Shown in pieces: positions 29,379-61,873 of a stretch of 64,000 nucleotides of DNA. A program made the translations under genes and the position numbers. The notes below the pieces were generated by a model that was not told the DNA's origin, searched no databases, and saw only the letters and a list, made by a program, of their open reading frames with translations. The DNA lies in assembly GCA_029254745.1 (NCBI GenBank), contig JAQWWZ010000031.1:46391-110390 (forward strand), given 5' to 3'. Numbering within the stretch: position 1 is the stretch's first letter; every line of letters begins with the position of its first letter. The stretch is from Opitutales bacterium (lineage in GTDB: Bacteria > Verrucomicrobiota > Verrucomicrobiia > Opitutales > Seribacteraceae).

Positions 29379-29786
29379 ATGAATACAGTTCTTGCTAGCG
29401 GTTTGCTTAATGTAGGTAAAAATTTGATCGACAACTTTTCGACTCCTACCCCAGTTCAATTCCAAAAAAGTACCCGAGCATTCTCGACCGAACTTGAAGA
29501 TGCCACATCCCTGTCCCAGAGCAGCAAACCCATTTCTTCTCTTAGGCATGATTTATTACAAGACCCATCCATTCAATCTTTTATGTCGGCGAATGCTGGA
29601 AATGAGATTTACCTGCAAAAACGAGCAGATGGTAGCTCACAAATTCTTTCTTCTTCCGGGGACACCATGGTGATTGGACAAAATACAAAAACCAATGCTC
29701 TCTTGCACCACTACTTTGACAAGTGTGAGCAAGAAGGTGCCTTCCTTTCTCCACACAGACCGAACAGCGTTTTACTCCAGGAGTAA
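29379..29786 (+). CDS. Hypothetical protein
   Basis: 135-codon ORF in a gap between same-strand genes. Confidence 0.45.
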   Translation: MNTVLASGLLNVGKNLIDNFSTPTPVQFQKSTRAFSTELEDATSLSQSSKPISSLRHDLLQDPSIQSFMSANAGNEIYLQKRADGSSQILSSSGDTMVIGQNTKTNALLHHYFDKCEQEGAFLSPHRPNSVLLQE

Positions 29787-29846
29787 AGCTAAGGAGTATT
29801 GAAACTCAGGTTTGTGATCCGTATCCTGAATAAGATCGTAAACTAA

Positions 29847-30737
29847 ATGAATAAACCTTCTGATTTCCTCCTCATCGAAAGGATTAATCAGTGCCCAAAA
29901 TTAGCATCACTCAAAAGCATCAATGATACATTGCGGGACCTGTTGGATTCAGAAGATAGTTTTGTTGGACAAATCGCAGAAGTCATTCGACTAGACCCCT
30001 CCTTAACCACGCGTATTCTTGATTTGGTCAATTCGATCTTTTTTGGAAGTAAAGAAAGTGACCGCATTTCTGGTGTTGAGGAAGCCTCTATCTTTTTAGG
30101 TCTCAACCGTATTAAAGACTTGATTGCAGCAACTCCTGTTATTGAGGAAATCTTTAAGCTTGGTAAAAAGAGTTCCTCCTTCCCATGGGTAGATTTTTGG
30201 AAGCATAGTATCGGGACAGCTATGCTTACTCGTGAAATCTTATCTTTTGCAGAAGAGGAATTTGAACAAGAAGCAGATTATGTAGCCGGACTTCTTCACA
30301 ATCTTGGCATCCTCATACTTGCGATCACTTTCCCTGAACACTTTTCTGATGTTTACAAAAAAGAGTATAATTCTGACCAAGAACTTCTTGAGTACGAAAG
30401 AAAAATCGTTGGGTGGGACCATGGAAAAATTGGGGCTTACTATTTATGGAACCACCACATTTCTGAAGAAGTTGTAGATTCTATTCATTGGCATAATCAG
30501 CCAAGTATGGCAAAAACCAATCCCAAACTAGCCTCAGCGATTCAAGTGGCCGACCATATTGTAAGGCAATTGGGGACCCATGGCATGGAAAACTACTCGA
30601 AAGGTCAAGATAGTGCATATTTAAAACTGGAAGGCTGGAGTATTTTATTTGGAGAACACCCAGAAGAAGATGATATCAAGGAAAAATTGAATTCTAGCTT
30701 GGAGAGGCTGAACCAAACCTTGAATGGTGTTTTATGA
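29847..30737 (+). CDS. HDOD-domain protein
   Basis: VIRLDPSLTTRILDLVNSIFFG, EEASIFLGLNRIKDLIAA, EADYVAGLLHNLGILIL. Confidence 0.88.
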   Translation: MNKPSDFLLIERINQCPKLASLKSINDTLRDLLDSEDSFVGQIAEVIRLDPSLTTRILDLVNSIFFGSKESDRISGVEEASIFLGLNRIKDLIAATPVIEEIFKLGKKSSSFPWVDFWKHSIGTAMLTREILSFAEEEFEQEADYVAGLLHNLGILILAITFPEHFSDVYKKEYNSDQELLEYERKIVGWDHGKIGAYYLWNHHISEEVVDSIHWHNQPSMAKTNPKLASAIQVADHIVRQLGTHGMENYSKGQDSAYLKLEGWSILFGEHPEEDDIKEKLNSSLERLNQTLNGVL

Positions 30738-30750
30738 AAAATTGCTTCCT

Positions 30751-31854
30751 TTAGGGTTTAACCCACTGGTCTTCACGTGCAGCCTTGGCTACTTTCAAGG
30801 CACCAATAGCAACAAAGGGTTTAAGCTCTCTTGAGGAAAGCCTTACCTCTGGATTTTCATAGTCATCATCTACCAACATCCGTTGAAGTTCTTGATCTAT
30901 ATTCCTTATACGACTTCCACCTCCTGTCAAAATTATGTTCTGCAACATGGCAAATACAGACTGGGCTGAAGCAACAGCTATGATTTCTTTGATTGAGGTA
31001 AAGATTTCTTGAAGTAATTGGTTACAGGATTCTCCTACCTGCTTGCCTATCTCAATCTTTCGTGGTTTTCCTTCTACCGGCACCTTAACTCTTGCACCCG
31101 CTTCTATTTCACCGACATAAGAGTAAGTTTCCTTGAATTTTCTTATCATTGACAAGGGAACATCCACCTCTGGGTAAGCTTCACGGATAGATTTATCTAT
31201 AGAAACATCGACCTCGTTACCAGCGTACGGAATACTAAGCAGGTCTTCCGGTTTTGGGAAATATCCCTGAACAATACAAAAATCCGTGGTACCTGCCCCA
31301 ATATCTACAAATAAAGAATTGCTCACGGGGTCTTTGTAATCGGGGTCCTCCAGCTTACTTTCATCTCTCATACCTAACGCCGCTAAAAAAGGTTCAGGAA
31401 TAAACAAAATTCCTTCAAAAGCCCCCTTCGCCGCCCTTTGCAAATTTTCTTTGGCTTCTACATCCGCAGCAGCAGGTAAACCGATCACACAATGAACCGA
31501 ATGCTTGCGCTCAGGGTCAATTTTTTCGCGAAGGTAGCACAGAAAAGAGTTGGTTGCTTCTACATCTTGAATAACGCCATCGTTTAACGGATGTACCAAA
31601 CGCAGGTGTAACTCATTAGCCAAGGCTTCATTACCGTGAAGCATCCTGGAACTGCCTGGAAGAATGCCGGCTAAAATCCCCTCTTCTGGATAGCCAACAA
31701 CCGTGGGAACCAGAATGCCCTCGCTTTCATTAGAGCTTTCTTTGCTAAGTTTTGTGAGTAGGTAAGAATTTAGGGTACCCAGATCTAGACCAATGTACAT
31801 TTTTCTTTTTTTGGGCGTGCTTCCCGCTGCTTCTTCTGTGGACTCTTCTGTCAT
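30751..31854 (-). CDS. Actin/Hsp70-fold ATPase, MamK-like bacterial actin
   Basis: Phosphate-1 YIGLDLGTLNSYLL, phosphate-2 SLFVDIGAGTTDFCIVQG, adenosine motif LQNIILTGGGSRIRNID; also VVGYPEE, LVHPLNDGVIQD and CVIGLPAAADVEAK, as in MamK-family proteins. Confidence 0.78.
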   Translation of the reverse strand: MTEESTEEAAGSTPKKRKMYIGLDLGTLNSYLLTKLSKESSNESEGILVPTVVGYPEEGILAGILPGSSRMLHGNEALANELHLRLVHPLNDGVIQDVEATNSFLCYLREKIDPERKHSVHCVIGLPAAADVEAKENLQRAAKGAFEGILFIPEPFLAALGMRDESKLEDPDYKDPVSNSLFVDIGAGTTDFCIVQGYFPKPEDLLSIPYAGNEVDVSIDKSIREAYPEVDVPLSMIRKFKETYSYVGEIEAGARVKVPVEGKPRKIEIGKQVGESCNQLLQEIFTSIKEIIAVASAQSVFAMLQNIILTGGGSRIRNIDQELQRMLVDDDYENPEVRLSSRELKPFVAIGALKVAKAAREDQWVKP

Positions 31855-31931
31855 GTTAGGTCAAAAATTTATAGGTTCTGATTAGAAATTAAAGTTTATT
31901 AATGGGGTAAAACTTGCAGGGGCAAAAAAAG

Positions 31932-32483
31932 TTAAGATTCAAATGCCAGGACTTCATCAATCATTTTCTCTATTTCATCAAATTTCAACCCCATTCCTCT
32001 TGGAGGATCAAGATTATTATCCTTTTCTGGTTCAGCTTCAATGGGAGTTTGATTTTCAGGGATAACCACTGGTTTTTTTTCAGTCGTTTGGACCTCTGTT
32101 TTTTTCGGTTTTTCCTTGGAAGAAACATGAGGAGCTAGCGAAACCTCTTCCAACAGTGACTTCATGTGTGAAACCATATTACCAAGTTCTTCTCGCATCA
32201 CCCCAGCAAGGCGAGCTTCAAAACGCCCAGCAAACAAATCAAAGGCTGTGGCCAACTCGTCTGCTCTGCCTGACTCGTCATCAAACATCTCCTTCAACTT
32301 GGCTTTTTTCTCCGCAGGCTCTAAACGACTAACCTTCGCCCAACTGACAACAAGCACTGGGATTTCTTCTTTGAGTACCTGAATAGCACCTGGTTCATCC
32401 CCCACCAATCGTCGCACGCAAGCTCTGCGGAATCCCGCCTTTAGGGCTTCTAGTGGGGAAAGGGCATTGGAGGAACTACTCAT
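31932..32483 (-). CDS. Hypothetical protein (candidate partner of the actin-like protein)
   Basis: Same strand, 77 nt upstream of the actin-like gene; helical N-domain, Lys/Glu/Pro-rich linker, short C-terminal motif GLKFDEIEKMIDEVLAFES. Confidence 0.6.
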   Translation of the reverse strand: MSSSSNALSPLEALKAGFRRACVRRLVGDEPGAIQVLKEEIPVLVVSWAKVSRLEPAEKKAKLKEMFDDESGRADELATAFDLFAGRFEARLAGVMREELGNMVSHMKSLLEEVSLAPHVSSKEKPKKTEVQTTEKKPVVIPENQTPIEAEPEKDNNLDPPRGMGLKFDEIEKMIDEVLAFES

Positions 32484-32563
32484 GTCAAAGATTTCGAATA
32501 ATCATTCCCTAGCAAGCAGACAACAAAATAGTCTTTTCAAAGAATCTAAATCGAGCTTAATTT

Positions 32564-33358
32564 TCATTTTAGTAAAGCCTCGAGCTCATTTCCCTCCACT
32601 TCAAGTTCATTTTGGAGGTAAGAAATCATATCATCCGGCATTATTGCAGAAAAACACTCTCCTCCTTCCTCCTCGAACCCAAGCCATTGACCATGCAATG
32701 CCTGCCGCTTCATGCCGAGAGATTCCATCCATTCATTTTTCCACCCCTCCTCACAAAATTTCAGATAAATATTTTCATCCGAACCATAAAGTTTCTCCCC
32801 GACTAAAGGATGCCCAATCCATTGAGCATGTGCCCGAATCTGATGTTTTCTTCCCGTGTGAGTACGCACTTTACAAAAAGTATGCTCATTTTTTGTAAGA
32901 ACCGGAATAAACTGGGTTTCCGCCTTTTTTGCCTTGTTAGTTTTTTGTTCCAAAACCCGTTGTTTTACGAACACATTACTATCAGGATCATTTCCTAAAA
33001 AATTTGAAACGGTTACCTCCTCAGTCAATACTCCTTTTATAATGGCCAAGTATCGTCGCTTGACCCGCTTTTCTTCAATCGCTTTTTGCCAGTGGCTCGC
33101 AGCTTTTCTATGTTTTGCGAATAAAACAACCCCACTAGTTTCACGATCTAAACGGCTTGCCAAATGAATGGACTCTAGTCTGAGGTACTCCTTTGCAGCC
33201 CCCACTAAACTAGACCATGGTCCATTTTTTGAAGGGTGACAAACTAACCAACCAGGTTTGTTAAGCACTAGTATATGGTCATCTTCATGAAGAATCCAAT
33301 CCTTGAATTCATCAAGCAGTACCATGGGTGCTGAGTCGGGTTCATTTAACATAATCAA
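32564..33358 (-). CDS. RluA-family pseudouridine synthase (second paralog)
   Basis: LASRLDRETSGVVLFAKH, CKVRTHTGRKHQIRAHAQWIGHPLVGEKLYG. Confidence 0.9.
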   Translation of the reverse strand: MIMLNEPDSAPMVLLDEFKDWILHEDDHILVLNKPGWLVCHPSKNGPWSSLVGAAKEYLRLESIHLASRLDRETSGVVLFAKHRKAASHWQKAIEEKRVKRRYLAIIKGVLTEEVTVSNFLGNDPDSNVFVKQRVLEQKTNKAKKAETQFIPVLTKNEHTFCKVRTHTGRKHQIRAHAQWIGHPLVGEKLYGSDENIYLKFCEEGWKNEWMESLGMKRQALHGQWLGFEEEGGECFSAIMPDDMISYLQNELEVEGNELEALLK

Positions 33359-33497
33359 CCCTCACACACCTAAACTTTTCTGCTTCAATAAAAAAAACTT
33401 AACTTTTTTTGGCGTTCCCATCATTTATGTGTAAAGTTGAGATAGTTTGTTAAAAGCAAGCAACCAAAATCATTAACCAAAATAACAATTAACGCAT

Positions 33498-34135: not shown

Positions 34136-34705
34136 TTACCCGCATACTGAAATTACCCGTTCTGCAATAACCTCAAAGGAAGCAAGCTTCCCAATTCCTT
34201 CGTACCCACAAGCAAGTTCGCCGACCACAGGTTCAATGATCTCGACTCCCCTGCCCTTCAATACAGTAATATTCTGTTGCACGGCTTCATGCTCGTACAT
34301 TTTACCATTCATCGCAGGGGCCAACATCACCGGGGCTTTGGTCGCCAAATAAATTGCACCCAATAGATCACTGGCAAAGCCGTGAGCATAGTTGCCTATC
34401 TGTTGGGCGGTTGCGGGGGCAACGAGAAAAAGATCAATCTTGTCCGCTAGTTCAATGTGCCCAGGTTGCCAGCCTTTCTCGTCCCAGAAGGAAGTAAGCA
34501 CGGGATTACGGGATAGTGTCTCCAAGGTCAACGCAGTGATAAACTTAGTGGCAGATTCGGTCATTACCACATGAACATCAGCTCCAGACTTTCTCAATTC
34601 ACCGATTAAATCCGTAGATTTATACGCAGCAATGGAACCAGAAACCCCGAGGGCAATGGTCTTACCCGAAAGTGGACCGGATGAGAATGGAGCCAAATAT
34701 GACAT
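34136..34705 (-). CDS. Phosphopantothenoylcysteine decarboxylase-like flavoprotein (CoaC domain only)
   Basis: ALGVSGSIAAYKSTDLIGELRKSGADVHVVMTESATKFI, LAPAMNGKMYEH, GELACGYEGIGKLA. Confidence 0.88.
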   Translation of the reverse strand: MSYLAPFSSGPLSGKTIALGVSGSIAAYKSTDLIGELRKSGADVHVVMTESATKFITALTLETLSRNPVLTSFWDEKGWQPGHIELADKIDLFLVAPATAQQIGNYAHGFASDLLGAIYLATKAPVMLAPAMNGKMYEHEAVQQNITVLKGRGVEIIEPVVGELACGYEGIGKLASFEVIAERVISVCG

Positions 34706-49920: not shown

Positions 49921-52806
49921 ATGAAATTTAAAATACTGCTCCTTTCACTCCTTCCTTATTTTTTGCACGCTGACAGTTTCCTGACACTTAACATCTCTGA
50001 CCTTTCGTTTAGGAATGGGGAAAAGCCGCCCGTAAAAGTCGATAACACTACACCTTATGCTCTGCAATATTCTCGAAGCATCGGAAGGTACATACCCAGC
50101 AATCTTCCCTATTGTAGAACTAAGGATGCTTCTGAGGCATTTATATCCTTCCGAAAAAAAGAAAGTTCTTCCAGCAATCGAGATAGTTTTTCATCTAACG
50201 ACCTCGTTGTTTGCTTTCGAAACCCGAAACCCAAAGTTGAGGGTCATCTCTTTCTTTATCACGAGCCAGATGGATGGAAGCCCATCTATTTCACTTTTGA
50301 AAAAAAGAATGATAAAAACCTGATGCATGAACAAAAAAGTGAAGATGAATATCTAAGCTACAGAGTCATTCGATATGAATGGCTGCAGGAACTTAGAGTT
50401 CCAGGGACAGCCTGGTACAGGCATCAAATCACCAAAGATCGTAACCGACTTGCACAAATTCGAAAAGAGCCAAGACCCACCAAACATACTCACAGCAATC
50501 GAGCAACCTTACGCCCCCCTCATAATACTGAATTAGAGAATAGTATGGACCTTTTTTCTGGGGGTCGTGCCATAAGTGAAAACTTACAACTGAACCGCGA
50601 ATTACGCTTATCCTCTGACGAACAAAATCGTTCCATCTCTTTATCTTCCCTGCCAGAAATCACCATCGATGAAATTCCATGGAAAGAATGGATAAAAGAA
50701 GAACAAAAGCCCACCCTTGATCCAATTGCTTCCCTTTTACCGCACGATCAACATGCTGTAATCTTCTCCTCTTACACGAGTATGCTTAAAATCCTGGACG
50801 AAGCAACCGCACGCGGCACTCCGCTGCTTCGGCTTGGCGAAAATCGAGCAGAGAGTGCCCGGTCAAAAGAAAAGTACTCCAGGCAGCTTTGCCTTCCGAT
50901 CGATAATCTATCCCGAATGCTCGGTCCAAAATTGATTTCATCCGTCGCAATTACCGGAAGTGATCCATTTTTTCGTACCGGCACTTCCCTTACCCTGATT
51001 TTTGAAACAGAGCAAAAGCAAGGTCTGCTCGCAGCCCTCAAGTTGAGAAGAATGGAAGCCCAAAAAAAATTCCCAAAAGCTCAAGCAGTGAAAGGATCTA
51101 TCCCTCAAGCAAACAAACATAAATACGTGGGAATAAATACCCAAGATCGTTTGATTCAAAGTTTTGTTTGTTCCTTTGGAAACTTTGTTGTCGTAACCAA
51201 TTCGATAAACCAGCTTTCCCGCCTAGCCCGGGTATTTGATAAAAAGGAAATCAATTTAGCTTCGCTGGAAGAGTATCATTTCTTTCGTCAGCGGTACCGC
51301 ATAACGCCTCAAGTGAAAGAGGATGCATTCCTTATGATTACAGATGCCACAATACGAAGATGGTGTGGAGCGGAATGGCGAATTGGAGCTTCAAGGCGGA
51401 CTCGGGCAGCATCCGCTATCGCCGAATTACAAGCACGAAATGAAAGTGGAACCCCACTGAATGCCAAGGAATTCCCAGAACTGGGCAAAGTTTCAGTGAT
51501 AGATGGTCTCGTCCAGAGCGAAAAGTTTGGGAATCTTGCATTTTTAAAATCCGTCGAAGAACTTAATATAAAAAAAATTACGCCGGCAGAAAAAAAAGCC
51601 TACGAATTTTTTCGGGACCGCTATCAAAGCCATTGGTCAAAATACTTCGATCCTATCTCTGCTCAACTCAGTATTCATGAAGGAAAAATTAAAGGTGATC
51701 TTTCAGTCCTTCCACTCATTGGGGGCACAGATTACCGTAACATAATTCAAACGGTTGGGGATGTAAAACTAAAGCCAGAATCAGGAGATCCTCACCCAGA
51801 AGCAAGTTTACACTGGATCAGTGCGATCGACATGAATTCACCCCGGTTTAAAAAAGCAAGTAATTTTGCCGCCATCATGGCACCCTCCCTCGGAGCGGGT
51901 GCTTTTAGCTGGATTGGAGAATCCTTTTCTTTCTTTCTTGATGAATCTGTATTCCTTACGGAAGCTCAGGATGTATTCGTTCTCGATGGTCAGGAAGCAG
52001 GCGAAAATTTTATCGAAGAAAACTTCGGACGGATCCCTCTTGGGTTTAATATTGAAGTGCGCAACCCCTTTAAGCTCACTGCCTTTTTGACAGGTCTGCG
52101 GGCCTGGATCGAACAGACCGCACCAGGCATGACCCATTGGAGCAGCAAATCATACAGGAAACAGGGCTATGTAAAGATTGCCCCCGGAAAAGATATGGAG
52201 GTCGACCTGATCATGGAAGGCTCCTCTCCTGTTGCCCTTTATTATGTACCCGCCCCTACATTATTTACGGTAAGCCTGAGCGAAGACATCATCAAGCGGG
52301 CAATCGATCGTAATTTAGATAGACGCGAAAAAAGATCGCAAAGAAAGATGGTACAACCAGAAGAGAAAATGCAGACCCAGGGAAACACCCATTCCCCTAC
52401 CCTTCCGGAAGTGGACTGGGCGGGTATGAGTTCGGCATTTCATTTATCTTCATCCACCCTGTCGCTGTTCTACTTATCTTTGAGCGAAAAACTAAACCGG
52501 GTACTCCAAAAGAAGTCATGGAATAATTTATATGCCCTCAATGAATGGAAGCTTTTGCTCAAGCAGAATGATCCCCTCGCTTATCATCAGGCGATTTGGC
52601 AGACCGATTTACATTGCCCAGGAAGAGGGAAATATGTCTGGAACCAAAAATTCCAGACTTTTGAATCCACTGCGTTCGGTCATCCCGCCAAGCCCAAAGA
52701 ACCCAAAAGTTTGAACCCCCTGAGTAACTGGAAATCAATTAATTTCGGAATTAATTTTGAAAAAGATGGCCTGCGAGCAAAGGCTACGGCCCGCAGAAAA
52801 AAATAG
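49921..52806 (+). CDS. Large exported hypothetical protein (961 aa)
   Basis: Signal peptide MKFKILLLSLLPYFLHADS; long uninterrupted ORF; no confident domain. Confidence 0.8.
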   Translation: MKFKILLLSLLPYFLHADSFLTLNISDLSFRNGEKPPVKVDNTTPYALQYSRSIGRYIPSNLPYCRTKDASEAFISFRKKESSSSNRDSFSSNDLVVCFRNPKPKVEGHLFLYHEPDGWKPIYFTFEKKNDKNLMHEQKSEDEYLSYRVIRYEWLQELRVPGTAWYRHQITKDRNRLAQIRKEPRPTKHTHSNRATLRPPHNTELENSMDLFSGGRAISENLQLNRELRLSSDEQNRSISLSSLPEITIDEIPWKEWIKEEQKPTLDPIASLLPHDQHAVIFSSYTSMLKILDEATARGTPLLRLGENRAESARSKEKYSRQLCLPIDNLSRMLGPKLISSVAITGSDPFFRTGTSLTLIFETEQKQGLLAALKLRRMEAQKKFPKAQAVKGSIPQANKHKYVGINTQDRLIQSFVCSFGNFVVVTNSINQLSRLARVFDKKEINLASLEEYHFFRQRYRITPQVKEDAFLMITDATIRRWCGAEWRIGASRRTRAASAIAELQARNESGTPLNAKEFPELGKVSVIDGLVQSEKFGNLAFLKSVEELNIKKITPAEKKAYEFFRDRYQSHWSKYFDPISAQLSIHEGKIKGDLSVLPLIGGTDYRNIIQTVGDVKLKPESGDPHPEASLHWISAIDMNSPRFKKASNFAAIMAPSLGAGAFSWIGESFSFFLDESVFLTEAQDVFVLDGQEAGENFIEENFGRIPLGFNIEVRNPFKLTAFLTGLRAWIEQTAPGMTHWSSKSYRKQGYVKIAPGKDMEVDLIMEGSSPVALYYVPAPTLFTVSLSEDIIKRAIDRNLDRREKRSQRKMVQPEEKMQTQGNTHSPTLPEVDWAGMSSAFHLSSSTLSLFYLSLSEKLNRVLQKKSWNNLYALNEWKLLLKQNDPLAYHQAIWQTDLHCPGRGKYVWNQKFQTFESTAFGHPAKPKEPKSLNPLSNWKSINFGINFEKDGLRAKATARRKK

Positions 52807-59788: not shown

Positions 59789-61873
59789 ATGAATATTTAC
59801 ATCCACAAAGATGGAACCCAATATGGTCCCTACACCCTCGAACAGGTAAACGAGTACTTACAACAAGGATCCTTCACCCCTCAGGATCAAGCCTGTCATG
59901 ATGGACAAAACTGGACGCCCCTTTCCCAAGTTCCCGGTATCACTCAGCCAGTTCCCGTACAACCAGTAGCCGCACCCGCCCAGACACAACCTGGTAAAAA
60001 GTCCAAAAGTAAGCAGGTGCAAGCAACCAGCCCTGCCCAACCTGCACCGGCCACCAAGAGTAAGAAAAAAATTATAATTTGGGGTTCTGTTGGAGCCGTT
60101 GTATTGATCGGCCTGATTGTCACTCTCATTGCAATCTTTTCCGGAGATGATGATGCTGGTACAAAAGTTTCAGGCAATGCTTCAGTATCTGAGCAGAATG
60201 AAGTAACAACCAATTCCGAGTCTGCCCCATCGGTACCAGCTGAAAAGAAGAGTAAGAAGCTCACCCTCCTTGAAAGAATCCCACCAGATTCAGGTGCCGT
60301 GATTTTCATTAGAGCCAATGACCTGTTGGAAAAAGGAAGGGACGATATCGCGGCTCTTTTGCCTCCGCCTCCCGGCATAACACCGATGGTGAAAAAAGCC
60401 TTGGAAGATCCAGCCTCTTTGGGCATCGATGTTTCCGTGCCTGTGCAAATTCACCTTATTCCCAACGAGAATACAAATTTGAGCCCAAGTGGTGGTTTAG
60501 CCGGGAAATTATCTGACAAAGAAAAGTTCATGACTACTTTGGAATTACTTGGAGGTCTTGAAGCACCTGTACAAAAAGATGGCTACCTGCTCTACAAAGG
60601 GCTCGGAGGGGCCAATAGTTCTGACCCCCAGATTGCAGTCGGTTCAGATTTCTTTTTTGTGGGAGGGACCGACATACCATCACAGAGAGAACAATGCATT
60701 GAAAAATTTATGACGGCTGATAAATACGATGGCTTGCTCAATACCGACAAATCCTTTGCCGGTTTTAGTAAGGAGGAACACGATATCAGTGTCTGGTTTG
60801 GTGGGGATTCTATCTTTGAAAAGCTGGGATCAGACATTGAGGAGCTGAACTTGGACGCCCTCAAAGGAGGAAGTGGCAACCTTACTCTCAATTTTGAAAA
60901 TGGAGAGATGGTGGGCAAGATAAATATTGAAGCACCCAGTAATGAAATGATTTACGGAAAAGGCGGATTTTCCGAGGAAATCCTCGCCTTGGCTCCTTCC
61001 GATGCCATTCTTGCCTTCGGCTTTGCTTTTGATCTTTCCAAATTTATGGAGATGGCGGAAAAGGAAATTCTTTCCGAATTTGGAGATGAAATAAACTTGG
61101 ATGAACCAATGCCTGAACTTGGTGATTTAACCATGAGAGATGCAATCAGTGCGTTTACCGGGGAATTCCTTGCCTCTATTACAGACATCAATATGCCAGA
61201 CCTTACTGCGATAGGAGGTGCTCCAGGAGTGCCTGATATGGATGCCGCCAAAGAAAACCCATTTGGCGATGTTGATATGGATGCGGTTGATGCCCCCTTC
61301 CCAGGTCCTGATGGTCCGGGCGAAAACCCTCCTATTGAGATAGACCCAGCATCCATGCTTATGGGAGCCATGCCCAAACCTGAATTTATTGTGGCAGCCT
61401 CCATAGACTCCACAAAATGGCTCAAACTGAAAGCAGCCCCTCCTCTGGCCATGGGCATTGGCCTTGCGATGATGCAAGGCTACACCATTGCAGAAAAAAA
61501 TAATTTCCTGGTCATTGCCAGTAAAGACCATACAGAGGCGGTAGCATCCGGTTCGGTGTCCAGCCCGGTTTCCGGACCCGCCAAAGCTTCATTTAAAGAA
61601 AATGATTTTATATTAAAAATGAATATGGCACCGATATTGGAATTGGGACTTCCCATCCCCAGCGGGGGCCCCAAGGAAATGTTGGAAGGAATTTCACACC
61701 TCGAAATCGCATCCAATTCCGGAAAGACCCAGGGGACTGGTACCTTCCGGCTTGTACTGAACGACAAAAATAAGAATTCTCTCGGTATTCTTCTGCAAAT
61801 GGCTAAAATGATTATGGTAATAGAGCAAAAAAGCAGCCTTTTGGATAATGGCATTGAAACGGAAGGTGAATAA
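59789..61873 (+). CDS. GYF_2-domain membrane-anchored protein with large exported domain
   Basis: MNIYIHKDGTQYGPYTLEQVNEYLQQGSFTPQDQACHDGQNWTPLSQVPGI; TM KKIIIWGSVGAVVLIGLIVTLIAIF. Confidence 0.8.
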   Translation: MNIYIHKDGTQYGPYTLEQVNEYLQQGSFTPQDQACHDGQNWTPLSQVPGITQPVPVQPVAAPAQTQPGKKSKSKQVQATSPAQPAPATKSKKKIIIWGSVGAVVLIGLIVTLIAIFSGDDDAGTKVSGNASVSEQNEVTTNSESAPSVPAEKKSKKLTLLERIPPDSGAVIFIRANDLLEKGRDDIAALLPPPPGITPMVKKALEDPASLGIDVSVPVQIHLIPNENTNLSPSGGLAGKLSDKEKFMTTLELLGGLEAPVQKDGYLLYKGLGGANSSDPQIAVGSDFFFVGGTDIPSQREQCIEKFMTADKYDGLLNTDKSFAGFSKEEHDISVWFGGDSIFEKLGSDIEELNLDALKGGSGNLTLNFENGEMVGKINIEAPSNEMIYGKGGFSEEILALAPSDAILAFGFAFDLSKFMEMAEKEILSEFGDEINLDEPMPELGDLTMRDAISAFTGEFLASITDINMPDLTAIGGAPGVPDMDAAKENPFGDVDMDAVDAPFPGPDGPGENPPIEIDPASMLMGAMPKPEFIVAASIDSTKWLKLKAAPPLAMGIGLAMMQGYTIAEKNNFLVIASKDHTEAVASGSVSSPVSGPAKASFKENDFILKMNMAPILELGLPIPSGGPKEMLEGISHLEIASNSGKTQGTGTFRLVLNDKNKNSLGILLQMAKMIMVIEQKSSLLDNGIETEGE

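Follow-up and report, generated by a model that had tools for sequence, protein, structure and literature searches.

BeeR, described by Bergeron et al. (2025, PNAS; PMC11929497), is a MamK-related actin of Verrucomicrobiota found in non-magnetotactic bacteria. It polymerises with ATP into a three-stranded tube, its cellular function is stated as unknown, and its disordered N-terminal extension is given as 30-50 aa (PMC11929497). The O. terrae protein is available as UniProt B1ZZL4 and PDB 8R2N, and the residues making cross-strand contacts in 8r2n, including Leu385, are named in the same paper (PMC11929497). Among actins with a small partner protein, the C-terminal helix of arcadin-2 binds the hydrophobic groove of crenactin between subdomains IA and IIA and depolymerises crenactin, and ParR uses the equivalent groove of ParM (PMC5173319). 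Besides the 2025 paper, its supplement aside, we found no report of a BeeR partner and no BeeR follow-up in the open-access literature.

Here we analyse a two-gene locus within a 64,000-nucleotide stretch of DNA from an Opitutales bacterium, referred to as the window and numbered from its first letter. The actin of this locus is itself already known; what is new is its conserved partner, together with the tail and contact differences that set the window protein apart from the published BeeR. We consider it probable that the pair constitutes a dedicated cytoskeletal module of Verrucomicrobiota, in which a BeeR-lineage actin is bound by the conserved C-terminal helix of its partner. The observations behind this proposal are the identity of the actin, the conservation, operon-like adjacency, co-occurrence and co-decay of the two genes, the predicted domain layout and the selection acting on both.

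Results

An actin of the BeeR lineage

The actin gene, beeR (30751..31854, minus strand), encodes 367 aa, and the gene of the 183-aa partner (31932..32483, minus strand) lies 77 nt upstream on the same strand, as in the initial annotation of this DNA. The actin consists of a disordered N-terminal tail of ~17-19 aa followed by an actin core ending in QW-VKP. It contains the motifs GLDLGT, VDIGAGTTDF and LTGGGSRIR and stops after the actin core, without the C-terminal domain of DnaK. AlphaFold predicted an actin fold (mean pLDDT 88.6), for which Foldseek returned 8r2n as the top match (E 1.3e-45), so that sequence, model and structural search agree with the actin fold that had been read from the motifs and the missing DnaK domain.

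The best-scoring NCBIfam model for the window actin was that of BeeR (NF053558; 503.5 bits, E 2.7e-151, profile cut-off 530), with MamK (NF040964) at 217.7 bits against a cut-off of 400 and MreB at 67.2 bits against a cut-off of 293. Matches in Pfam were to MreB_Mbl, Salactin and Actin, and HSP70 scored 16.2 bits, below its cut-off of 20.6. A search of PDB sequences gave the same order (8r2n, E 4.5e-98; MamK, 2.3e-38; MreB, 3.5e-13), and the protein is 44% identical to O. terrae BeeR over 351 aa and 33% identical to MamK over 290 aa. In addition, it has the 12-residue insertion of BeeRs (MRDESKLEDPDY in the window protein) that is missing from MamK. The nearest named relatives are Opitutia/Opitutales MAGs, placing the actin in Verrucomicrobiota hosts as described for BeeR, and the actin fold and the ATP-binding and hydrolysis motifs of a BeeR are present. 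The tree set the MreB clade apart from the window actin with support of 100/100, and a separate MreB gene is present in the window's genome. The single MamK included in this tree has a very long branch (4.17) and was placed inside BeeR, a placement that we do not trust; a single BeeR clade was not rejected in an AU test (p-AU 0.28).

The window actin thus is a member of the verrucomicrobial BeeR lineage and not a MamK, an identity rejected on the profile scores, the PDB search and the 12-residue insertion. DnaK and MreB were likewise rejected, on the Pfam and NCBIfam profiles, the tree and the absence of a DnaK substrate-binding domain. The initial annotation had ranked MamK ahead of MreB and DnaK in likeness to the protein, which the profile and PDB scores bear out, but the MamK-family filament that it proposed gives way to the related BeeR lineage (PMC11929497). 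Because the BeeR profile score lies below the cut-off and the N-terminal tail is shorter than the stated range, we use the label BeeR-lineage actin. No MamK-type or magnetosome family was found among the ~40 window ORFs scanned with NCBIfam, in line with the earlier remark that the gene stands outside any magnetosome context; since BeeR was published as MamK-related and from non-magnetotactic hosts, a MamK-like actin without magnetosomes is already explained.

The pair sits among chromosomal housekeeping genes. Elsewhere in the window, a CoaBC-like ORF of 189 aa (34136-34705, minus strand) corresponds to the decarboxylase half, the ligase half falling outside the ORF, and two large ORFs on the plus strand (49921-52806, 961 aa; 59789-61873, 694 aa) had no NCBIfam match at 1e-10.

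Departures from the O. terrae filament

The window protein shares with O. terrae BeeR its fold, nucleotide motifs, phylum and 12-aa insertion relative to MamK. Its N-terminal tail of ~19 aa compares with 37 aa in O. terrae BeeR by the same measure, and over all loci these tails range from 19 to more than 40 aa. Of the 8r2n contact residues, the window protein retains E153 and R157 and has V260/I267 in place of the hydrophobic pair I277/L284, whereas five others are changed (E149V, R242E, N246E, T307E, Q310A). The window protein also terminates at QW-VKP, before the Leu385 contact, whereas Opitutaceae BeeRs terminate in QWQ.LL. With the cross-strand contacts only partly kept and the Leu385 position absent, a three-stranded filament cannot be taken for granted in the window clade.

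A partner with a conserved tail

AlphaFold models of 47 partners, combined with conservation and pN/pS, divide the partner into three parts. An N-terminal three-helix domain (residues 10-115; 32139..32456, minus strand) has helices at 10-26, 30-51 and 56-115, predicted at pLDDT 97-98. It is followed by a disordered, fast-evolving linker (about residues 116-163; 31995..32138, minus strand) and by a C-terminal region, MGLKFDEIEKMIDEVLAFES (residues 164-183; 31935..31994, minus strand), that is conserved and amphipathic and is modelled as a helix over 168-182 at pLDDT ~88; the C-terminal sequence of the 183-aa protein is GLKFDEIEKMIDEVLAFES. This is the layout of helical domain, linker and conserved C-terminal peptide that had first been suggested for the ORF. 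In the N-terminal domain, R19 is invariant, as is W48 wherever it could be aligned, and C22, R25, E70 and R73 are near-invariant. The tail follows the consensus F-D-x-I-x-x-M-I-D-x-x-L, with D176 conserved in 100% and I171 in 98%, and is amphipathic (shuffle p 0.03).

Purifying selection acts on both ORFs, with pN far below pS outside the partner linker, and neither is therefore a chance ORF. Within the partner, pN/pS against near relatives is about 0-0.2 for the N-terminal domain and tail and about 0.5-0.75 for the linker. We found no match for the 47 partner members in Pfam, for their HMM among PDB sequences, or for the window copy in NCBIfam. Foldseek identified no significant relative of the partner (best E 1.4); the weak MIT-domain lookalikes all had E >=1.4, and we do not believe this likeness. 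Sites in a promoter and terminator scan were no more frequent than in shuffles.

The partner and beeR stay together

Searched against 99 relatives, the partner was found beside beeR across the family, with conserved N- and C-termini and a linker of variable length. We then assembled a set of 80 named loci from genome contigs and 22 class-level loci. An iterated partner HMM, whose seeds, like the tail pattern, were picked by inspecting ORFs upstream of beeR, gave 86 matches among the 3840 ORFs of the BeeR loci, every one of which immediately precedes a beeR gene in the same orientation. Of 85 partners, 56 carry the tail pattern, compared with 1 of 3755 other ORFs, a contrast that is partly post hoc. 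Partner and beeR are separated by a median of 49 nt, and in several genomes they overlap by 4 nt. The genes flanking the pair vary by clade (RluA-type synthase, citramalate-synthase-like gene, rplU), and the partner and beeR stay together. In one genome (G181), the BeeR shares 100% identity with 8r2n across 351 aa and has a 153-aa partner 47 nt upstream, and the experimentally studied O. terrae BeeR thus appears to have a partner too.

A recognised adjacent partner was found in 85 of the 98 testable BeeR loci and is missing in 13. The latter include a BeeR clade (L114-L116, L126, L128, L131, L141, L171 and L173), the loci L137, L139 and L143, and L112 (genome G055), where partner and BeeR are on different contigs. 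As the clade and the other three loci show no recognisable adjacent partner, BeeR can exist without one. The BeeRs of this clade share a conserved N-terminal tail beginning MRTT[YF]VxPxT, and this tail may replace the role of the partner. The two checks named in the initial annotation, for placement with DnaK or MreB and for conservation of the neighbour, accordingly left the pair standing: neither profiles nor tree support such a placement, and most loci keep the partner beside the actin.

Two further features of these loci were noted. Convergent to beeR (29379-30737, plus strand) are the genes of an HDOD-domain protein and of a second, small and uncharacterised protein; they are conserved in this position throughout the family, a conservation that does not extend to more distant beeR loci. 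In addition, three loci with Opitutia-like BeeR surroundings carry the labels Klebsiella pneumoniae (L118), Akkermansia muciniphila (L122) and Gammaproteobacteria (L156); L118 and L156 are probably mislabelled MAGs, and L122 perhaps is.

Across 291 genomes of the class, 19 have both BeeR and the partner, 4 BeeR only and 3 the partner only (Fisher 4e-23, a test that ignores shared ancestry). Two of the four BeeR-only genomes (G066 and G225) hold a divergent partner on closer look, and the partner-only genomes lack BeeR, with just MreB-level matches. Among the latter, G340 (L198; G340:C2:127627-128085 and downstream) carries a partner gene interrupted by four stops and, after it, what is left of the beeR N-terminus; the pair has decayed together in this genome. 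G232 retains the partner N-terminal domain, has lost the C-terminal motif and lacks BeeR, and G355 is a weak match of motif length only. A phylum-wide sample gave a similar picture of co-occurrence, with BeeR patchily distributed (18 of 394 genomes).

Discussion

The arrangement of a domain, a linker and a terminal helix encoded beside an actin gene is that of ParR and arcadin-2, and suggests that the partner docks on BeeR through its tail. Most likely, the partner serves BeeR specifically, as a regulator or adaptor that would place its C-terminal helix on the actin, a reading for which conservation, co-occurrence, co-decay and predicted architecture lend support to the earlier guess of a filament adaptor or nucleator. 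In such a module, the partner is encoded first and the actin second, and the actin would polymerise on ATP, as judged by homology to O. terrae BeeR. The helical N-terminal domain of the partner may bind cargo or self-associate, and the flexible linker would connect it to the amphipathic helix, for which the hydrophobic groove between BeeR subdomains IA and IIA is the likeliest docking site. Once docked, the partner could act on filament ends by capping or nucleation, sequester monomers, or serve as a tether for cargo. Within this same explanation, it is possible, if clearly not the favoured case, that the partner sequesters or depolymerises BeeR rather than tethering cargo: the layout matches that of arcadin-2, in which the C-terminal helix is sufficient to depolymerise crenactin (PMC5173319), whereas the conservation of a folded domain, in which R19 and W48 are invariant, points to a role for more than the tail. 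More speculative still is the idea that BeeR and its partner form a bacterial cytoskeletal system of two proteins, not described before and using an adaptor fold of its own; in the window clade, where BeeR has lost the C-terminal leucine that helps to hold the 8r2n strands together, the partner helix may fill the lateral pocket and set the number of strands.

Other explanations are less probable. It is unlikely that the two genes are merely syntenic and functionally unconnected; the 13 loci without a recognised adjacent partner and the separate contigs of G055 are compatible with this, but all HMM matches adjoin beeR while the flanks turn over, the two genes co-occur genome-wide, and the partner has decayed in two genomes that no longer have BeeR, G340 and G232. 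We similarly doubt that the two genes segregate DNA in the manner of ParMRC, with the partner as a ParR-like DNA adaptor. Systems of that kind are likewise two-gene units of an actin and a small protein with a C-terminal helix of the actin-binding kind, but the N-terminal domain of the partner is modelled as all-helical with no beta strand, and is thus not ribbon-helix-helix; no iteron-like direct repeats or centromere-like repeat family were found in 31800-33400 around the pair, which lies among chromosomal housekeeping genes. The adaptor-then-actin order is also the reverse of that of parMR, which we count against this reading, and the ParMRC identity was rejected on the lack of an RHH domain and of repeats. 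Least probable, to the point of being barely credible, is that a non-magnetotactic bacterium here makes a genuine MamK filament: MamK ranks second among the known relatives of the window actin and its single long branch fell inside BeeR, yet the BeeR profile and 8r2n outscore MamK by wide amounts, the MamK cut-off is not reached, the MRDESKLEDPDY insertion is missing in MamK, and a single BeeR clade was not rejected.

The dedicated module that we prefer can be set beside three known systems. MamK is the family nearest to BeeR outside BeeR itself, and both are non-MreB bacterial actins; the window protein differs in being 33% identical, far under the MamK profile cut-off and in a window without magnetosome families. 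The likeness to ParM/ParR lies in an actin with a small partner whose C-terminal helix would work on the actin in a similar way, but the BeeR partner has an N-terminal domain that is not ribbon-helix-helix, is without centromere-like repeats and is encoded in the reversed gene order. In the archaeal crenactin/arcadin-2 system, a small protein encoded in the same cluster places its C-terminal helix on the actin groove (PMC5173319), as we propose for the BeeR partner; the two are set side by side by layout and not by sequence comparison, and the F-D-x-I-x-x-M-I-D tail of the BeeR partner lacks the tryptophan reported in the arcadin-2 peptide. A co-inherited, dedicated partner, also present upstream of a BeeR identical to the solved one, offers a handle on the binding mode, regulation and cargo of BeeR, and would be a further, bacterial example of an actin paired with a C-terminal helix, beside ParR and arcadin-2, its partner domain having no match in the sequence-family and structure libraries searched.
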